From NCBI GenBank assembly GCA_022787085.1, contig JALFVE010000047.1:1-64000 (forward strand): 64,000 nucleotides of DNA, written 5' to 3'. The position numbers were made by a program, and so were the translations under genes. The notes under the pieces were generated by a model. That model saw nothing but the letters and a program-made list of their open reading frames with translations. It did no database searches and was not told where the DNA came from. Shown piece after piece: positions 50,221-50,325 of the stretch. This stretch comes from Oscillospiraceae bacterium. GTDB taxonomy: Bacteria; Bacillota; Clostridia; Oscillospirales; Ruminococcaceae. The number at the start of each line of letters is the position of its first letter. Within the stretch, counting starts at the first letter, position 1.

Positions 50221-50325
50221 CGGTGCATTTTGATGTTTTCTTGTTGCTCTGCCCACTGAGCTACGGGTCGCCCCGACAGGAATCGAACCTGTGACACGCA
50301 AGGACAAGATTTGCTGTTAGCACCG
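50221..50325 (-). ncRNA. Unit 1: Y RNA-like RNA with circularly permuted tRNA mimic
   Basis: CGGTGC-TAACAGCAA...CTTGT...ACAGGTTCGATTCCTGT (T-arm), CGGG-GCGA-CCCG (capped acceptor), TAGCTCAGTGGGCAGAGCA (D-arm), ACAAG...GCACCG. Confidence 0.8.

Follow-up and report, generated by a model that had tools for sequence, protein, structure and literature searches.

A 64,000-nt stretch of DNA from a gut Oscillospiraceae bacterium (contig JALFVE010000047.1, positions 1 to 64,000; hereafter the window) carries on its minus strand what is almost certainly an operon of the RNA ligase RtcB, six small RNAs and a Ro60-like protein of the DUF2828/DUF7788 type, in which each RNA uses a presumed Ro-binding stem to present a different part of a tRNA. 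With the same high confidence, the parts shown in the window are a permuted tRNA without anticodon arm in module 1, a Gly-type anticodon arm in module 3 and T-arms or elbows in modules 4 and 6. Computational analysis established the existence and structure of the array, the tRNA identities of its loops and the linkage, and the array seems to represent a part of the Ro/Y-RNA world that had not been recognised before. An initial annotation of this DNA had described a single tRNA mimic near rtcB. That element is real, but it is the first of six tandem modules occupying positions 50326-49661 between rtcB and the DUF2828/DUF7788 gene, most of which mimic other parts of tRNAs. The elements of the array are as follows.

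50219-50326, minus strand: module 1, with outer stem CGGTGC/GCACCG, TAACAGCAA and a circularly permuted tRNA mimic (Rfam YrlA model, covarying orthologues).
50240-50308, minus strand: tRNA-like core of module 1 (sequence; 85 bits with model R1, of which this core is a seed sequence).
50156-50205, minus strand: module 2, AAGGCGCA GACAGCAA ... TGCGCCTTG, with a short insert (descriptor, fold).
50089-50143, minus strand: module 3, AAGGCAC ATACAGCAA ... GTGCCTTG, with the anticodon-arm mimic TTCAC-CTGCCAC-GTGAA (50119-50103).
49942-50066, minus strand: module 4, ACGGCTCA AACAGCAA ... TGAGCCGTG, with closing GCTAT/ATAGC.
49855-49926, minus strand: module 5, AAGGCTC GATCAGCAA ... GAGCCTTG, with a conserved GGGACGCAG/CTGCG hairpin (kept in loci L025-L027).
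49661-49840, minus strand: module 6, AAGACAG TCACAGCA ... CTGTCTTG, a repeat-interrupted elbow mimic.
49675-49776, minus strand: repeat in module 6 resembling a miniature inverted-repeat transposable element (MITE), an imperfect palindrome of about 102 bp.

The modules share a frame that opens with one strand of the stem (about 7 nt) and continues with two free bases, A/T-CAGCA(A/T), the insert, the complementary strand and a G; as a consensus, a 7-bp outer stem is followed by NN-ACAGCAA and the closing end reads ...YYKUG. Module 1 has a 6-bp outer stem plus a mismatch and ends in AG. The exact 5′ module motif was found in the organism's own genome only at the array. For array searches a descriptor composed of the 7-bp stem, the motif and the closing G was used, and cellular loci yielded 2.8-3.0 modules per kb upstream of the protein gene versus 0.10-0.13 in flanking or downstream DNA and about 0.05 (0.046) in shuffled sequence. 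The outer stem covaries strongly across modules. This covariation is not a product of selection by the descriptor, since in a leave-one-out test six pairs were demanded and the seventh was merely observed: Watson-Crick pairing amounted to 88.6% at the outermost pair (402 cases) and to 95.1-99.7% at the other six, and all four pair types were seen at the variable positions, several of them frequently. At the loci examined, no Rfam family reached its threshold over the modules except tRNA for a few.

The array was detected by the descriptor upstream of the DUF2828 gene in 16 of 16 relatives, at 75 of 77 named Clostridial loci and at 51 of 78 loci on viral contigs, with up to eight modules per locus. 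Among phage records, 666 of 50,697 encode the DUF2828 protein. Modules adjoin its gene in Bacillus phage FADO, Listeria phage A511, Enterococcus phages EF1 and SHEF16 and Campylobacter phage CP81, and lie downstream of it in Staphylococcus phages and mycobacteriophages; the KVP40-like and Synechococcus phages that were examined showed none. In a Felixounavirus (E. coli typing phage 11, locus L243, 6716-7491) four unannotated modules, one of them a complete permuted mimic, are situated in a tRNA cluster.

The permuted layout of module 1 is present in the sequence exactly as first proposed. On the minus strand, the core opens with CTTGT (50308-50304) and closes with ACAAG (50244-50240), and between these ends lie the T-arm ACAGG-TTCGATT-CCTGT (50292-50276), a 4-bp acceptor CGGG/CCCG (50275-50272 / 50267-50264) closed by a GCGA loop and followed by TA, and a canonical D-arm GCTC-AGTGGGCA-GAGC (50261-50246). 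The core was expected to start 8 nt after the rtcB stop codon; it begins at 25 nt, and it is the outer stem (50326) that starts at about 8 nt. The Rfam YrlA model matched precisely at the element (50300-50241; 38.4 bits, E 8.8e-7 in 801 bp), and over the whole 2.5-Mb genome module 1 was its sole match (E 6.6e-7). Both this score and that of the best relative (46.1 bits) remain below the curated gathering score of 69 bits. At the orthologous operon of a congener the model aligned end to end with 46 bits, whereas the match in module 1 spans model positions 23-86 only, that is the tRNA-like domain without the outer stem. The T-arm, closed acceptor and D-arm of the YrlA domain are all present in permuted order; the Ro-binding stem of the YrlA consensus is not, the stem of the relative aligning poorly and carrying ACAGCAA in its place.

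The compensatory changes anticipated for homologous loci were seen. In eight Clostridial permuted cores all 13 pairs are kept in every sequence (100% of cells), and 11 double-change cells were counted versus 3.4 after shuffling, the T-stem and the acceptor changing on both sides with pairing preserved. The identification as a YrlA/Y-RNA-like permuted mimic is thus borne out by the best genome-wide model match, by covarying helices and by complementary acceptor halves. ARAGORN reported no tRNA in the window.

Two ordinary tRNA genes in tandem can imitate the permuted signature together with a weak YrlA match (as in genome G063), and therefore acceptor complementarity was tested separately. The scan for permuted mimics ignored acceptor pairing and the Ro stem. 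It found 25 permuted mimics within modules (21 loci), of which 21 had acceptor halves paired at four of four positions, compared with 2.6 expected with shuffled partners; outside modules it returned 129 look-alikes, mostly tandem tRNAs, and only 10 were fully paired (4.9 with shuffled partners). A tandem-tRNA artefact was consequently rejected for the modules by this complementarity, while it does explain weak YrlA and R1 matches in tRNA clusters.

The tRNA character of the inserts was assessed on 393 unique modules from 137 loci. Hairpins with a 5-bp stem and a 7-nt loop exceeded shuffled controls 4.2-fold in cellular and 2.9-fold in viral modules, and this loop size alone was clearly enriched (other sizes 0.85-1.6). 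T-loops occurred 61 times in sense and once in antisense orientation. The Y32-U33-R37 loop grammar was rejected as sole criterion because it is not strand-specific (77 sense versus 58 antisense). Loops were instead compared with a dictionary compiled from actual tRNAs, and exact matches to the anticodon loops of true tRNA genes numbered 52 in sense versus 11 in antisense; genuine anticodon loops were also far more frequent than in shuffled controls. The 71 strict anticodon arms include no stop anticodon and four with A34. Relative to tRNA gene numbers, Asp GUC (17 arms, p 3e-8) and Lys UUU (11 arms, p 6e-5) are over-represented; Asp GUC is found in 17 of 49 cellular and 0 of 22 viral arms, and Lys UUU favours viral loci (8 of 22 versus 3 of 49 cellular, p 0.0025). 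Gly is also among the genuine anticodon loops of the inserts. Stems around one and the same loop can differ completely, as in ATGAA-CTGTCAA-TTCAT and TTCAT-CTGTCAA-ATGAA. Overall, the inserts comprise permuted tRNAs, T/D elbows, linear tRNAs and anticodon arms: canonical-order mimics joined via the acceptor stem were observed at L031, L040 and L107, two linear-order modules of relatives (L040, L031) passing the Rfam tRNA threshold, and complete permutations retaining the anticodon arm occur in the phages SHEF16 (Phe GAA) and Faith1 (Asn GUU).

Several of these kinds are represented in the window itself. The loop of module 3 is of the Gly(GCC) type, while orthologues carry Asp GUC, for instance TTCAC-CTGTCAC-GTGAA at L025. 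Module 4 combines a variable-arm-like hairpin, the T-arm CTGTG-TTCGAAT-CACAG (50001-49985) and an acceptor hairpin. The elbow mimic of module 6 consists of AATTGGTTAAT, the T-arm GCAGG-TTCAAAT-CCTGC (49808-49792) and an acceptor hairpin. The genome contains about a dozen nearly complete copies of the MITE-like repeat of module 6, most of them 98-99% identical; weak matches to 6S-Flavo, MIR and similar families at 49675-49776 were rejected, the site being this palindrome. As module 6 is interrupted here and not in the relatives inspected (L025-L027), the element may be recently mobile. At modules 5 and 2 no meaningful match to other Rfam families was obtained. The class to which module 5 belongs (window 49926-49855; L024, L044, L058) keeps a CAGGGRCGCAG...CTGCG-like hairpin across genera.

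The gene following the array encodes the presumed RNA-binding partner.

48169-49644, minus strand: DUF2828+DUF7788 protein with a predicted Ro60-like fold (Pfam, AlphaFold, Foldseek, conserved residues).

The protein is predicted to adopt a Ro60 fold, a helical ring plus a vWA domain. The AlphaFold model, built from 16 relatives, is of moderate quality, with a predicted local distance difference test (pLDDT) score of 80.7 and a predicted template modelling (pTM) score of 0.63. Foldseek against the PDB retrieved ten structures below E 1e-3 (all at E <= 6e-4), every one a Ro60/TROVE protein, including human Ro60 and that of phage phiLo. The vWA metal-site motif reads DGSGSM in the window, and D-S-G-S-M is invariant, along with other residues, in 16 of 16 relatives. 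By sequence, no TROVE domain of Pfam was found but only DUF2828, DUF7788 and a weak VWA_2 match, and a PDB sequence search with the protein profile gave no match even at E 10. The designation of this gene as Ro-like is therefore right by predicted fold, since all ten significant PDB matches are Ro60/TROVE, and not by membership of the canonical TROVE family.

In the window, rtcB, the Ro-like gene and the Y-like RNA are adjacent, and the following features lie upstream of the array.

50334-51578, minus strand: rtcB, RNA ligase gene (ATG at 51578, open reading frame open from TTG 51608; Pfam RtcB PF01139, 368.6 bits).
51597-51602, minus strand: TATAAT, likely -10 element of the rtcB-array-Ro operon, judged from the sequence.
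51637-51642, minus strand: TTCGCA followed by a T-run, preceding the operon promoter; present at 46 of 92 cellular loci.
51676-52965, plus strand: divergent WYL-like protein, possible regulator (weak Pfam WYL match, 18.7 bits, cut-off 21.8).
52972-53988, plus strand: second WYL/WCX-like protein (weak Pfam matches below the cut-offs, WCX 17.3 and WYL 14.4 bits).

Of the 52 occurrences of TTCGCA with the T-run in 1.04 Mb, almost all are at these loci, and the sequence is likely an operator or promoter element; the two divergent genes are possible regulators of the RNA-repair operon. Of 39 well-flanked loci, 26 encode RtcB inside the fetched flanks. The genome has another, divergent RtcB gene at G000:C2:38583-39662. 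Additionally, the window contains cobalamin (7487-7704) and SAM (S-adenosylmethionine; 16782-16896) riboswitches.

The best overall explanation, to which we assign a probability of roughly 0.5, combines the operon identity with a decoy mechanism. For the mechanism itself, in which a Ro-like ribonucleoprotein (RNP) exposes parts of tRNAs to enzymes attacking tRNA and RtcB is its partner for repair, the odds appear slightly worse than even. The modules would be transcribed and bound by the Ro-like protein, which would stabilise their RNAs; the displayed parts would act as decoys or baits for tRNA-attacking enzymes, above all anticodon nucleases; and the RtcB of the operon would reseal cleaved tRNAs and possibly cleaved decoys too, for which reason the bait is proposed to be reusable. 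In phages, the RNPs would counter host tRNA-cleaving defences. More broadly, and still more tentatively, the DUF2828 RNPs of gut Clostridia and of many phages might carry exchangeable displays of tRNA parts, specific anticodon loops among them; these would divert tRNA-cleaving toxins and defences as decoys that can be used again after resealing by RtcB. The mechanism is suggested by the specific and skewed anticodons and their swap in orthologous module 3, by the frequent presence of RtcB, and by the occurrence in phages, in whose conflicts the cleavage of tRNAs is known to serve as a weapon; the conflict between phages and anticodon nucleases is established for PrrC and tRNA-Lys (PMC10264068). 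It is also suggested by the Ro/Y-RNA/RtcB operon of S. Typhimurium, which is induced by tRNA cleavage (PMC7790460) and whose authors proposed that the YrlA domain might inhibit an anticodon nuclease.

A number of observations weigh against this explanation. No tRNA mimicry was identified in the inserts of modules 2 and 5, elbow-only mimics such as module 1 would not be substrates of anticodon nucleases, and the 71 strict anticodon arms represent a minority of the 393 modules. The enrichment of Asn GUU and Phe GAA (seven strict arms each) is modest, with uncorrected p of 0.01-0.02, and all anticodon p-values overstate independence because the loci are related by descent. Moreover, about one third of the well-flanked loci have no RtcB inside the fetched flanks.

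The main rival, which we consider unlikely, is a RYPER-like role in which tRNA-binding enzymes (PNPase, RtcB or tRNA-modifying enzymes) dock to the Ro-like ring through the inserts, or the inserts gate the ring, with a change in the substrate choice of these enzymes. Such tethering is known for Rsr and Y RNA, as a Deinococcus Y RNA tethers Rsr to PNPase and the tRNA-like YrlA domain binds PNPase (PMC8394870), and both the predicted Ro60 fold and the elbow-type inserts of modules 1 and 6, suited to a generic tRNA-binding partner, agree with it. For a generic docking role the anticodon need not be specific, but Asp GUC and Lys UUU show strong over-representation, and module 3 alternates between Gly GCC and Asp GUC among orthologues; the several different inserts per array would imply several partners. 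A sensor, in which cleaved tRNA parts signal to the Ro-like protein or to WYL-like regulators and thereby raise rtcB expression, is improbable. It would resemble the activation of the Salmonella Ro/RtcB operon by tRNA fragments through RtcR (PMC7790460) and would give a role to the divergent WYL-like genes with their weak domain matches and to the conserved TTCGCA-T-run element, but the WYL assignment lies below the Pfam cut-off and no WYL-like regulator is annotated next to the phage copies inspected. It is very improbable that the stems are cis-acting structures whose sole role is to keep the rtcB and Ro-like messages apart or to make them more stable: the position between two co-directional genes with short spacers would allow it, whereas genuine tRNA loops, and the arrays that in some phages follow the gene or sit within tRNA clusters, misfit a spacer. 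Finally, although tandem tRNA genes such as those of G063 or of phage tRNA clusters imitate the permuted order and a weak YrlA match, there is hardly any chance that the modules are remnants of ordinary tRNA genes, because acceptor halves are complementary and covary only inside modules (21/25 versus 10/129 outside), outer stems covary, and relatives keep the permuted order instead of a standard-order tRNA.

The arrays described here constitute a large family with one stem and a repertoire of tRNA parts that includes skewed, real anticodon loops. To our knowledge, known bacterial Y RNAs have one tRNA-like domain, without an anticodon. How Ro RNPs and RtcB are connected with tRNA cleavage becomes directly testable, as each anticodon module predicts a tRNA and hence a nuclease; the test is practical because arrays are present in laboratory-tractable phages infecting B. 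subtilis and E. coli. A function is also suggested for the DUF2828 protein of phages. The permuted tRNA mimicry of YrlA and its presence in some phages were already known. Among the papers examined, which cover the primary literature on bacterial Y RNAs incompletely, none was found to describe anticodon-arm modules, and these may have been described earlier.

For Listeria phage CKA15, the available portions of a published account (PMC12282133) propose that the DUF2828 gene encodes an Rsr-like protein, found in virions, and that Y RNAs are among three noncoding regions with high transcription, all lying within 2 kb; these portions contain no mention of anticodon-arm mimics. The sole region for which they state coordinates (26,236-26,727) maps outside the modules, and the RNA sequencing of CKA15 was hence rejected as proof of module transcription. 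The counterpart of that region in Listeria phage A511 (L240, about 2514-3005) contains no ACAGCAA module and therefore represents a different noncoding RNA.

In comparison with known systems, module 1 resembles YrlA and other bacterial Y RNAs (RF02553; Salmonella, Deinococcus, Mycobacterium) in placing a permuted T-arm, closed acceptor and D-arm on an end-formed stem near Ro-like and rtcB genes. In contrast, the modules score 38-46 bits and never the curated 69, the ACAGCAA element of their stem is not seen in the Rfam YrlA consensus, and most modules here are not YrlA-like, anticodon-arm and linear-order mimics among them. The protein shares with Ro60/TROVE proteins (Rsr; phage phiLo Ro60, PDB 9l5y) the predicted ring and vWA domain with a conserved metal-site motif, but at 11-14% identity and with no TROVE match in Pfam. 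As in the Salmonella rsr-yrlBA-rtcBA operon, a Ro-like gene, Y-like RNAs and rtcB occur together; here six RNAs carry different inserts, and divergent, weakly matching WYL-like genes stand in contrast to the CARF regulator RtcR of Salmonella. Neither rtcA nor RtcR was noticed next to the operon of the window, no profile search having been aimed at them. With the phage tRNAs and ligases that counter anticodon nucleases the modules have in common the same tRNAs (Lys UUU) and often the same phage tRNA clusters, but they are not functional tRNAs and instead show tRNA parts on a Ro stem.
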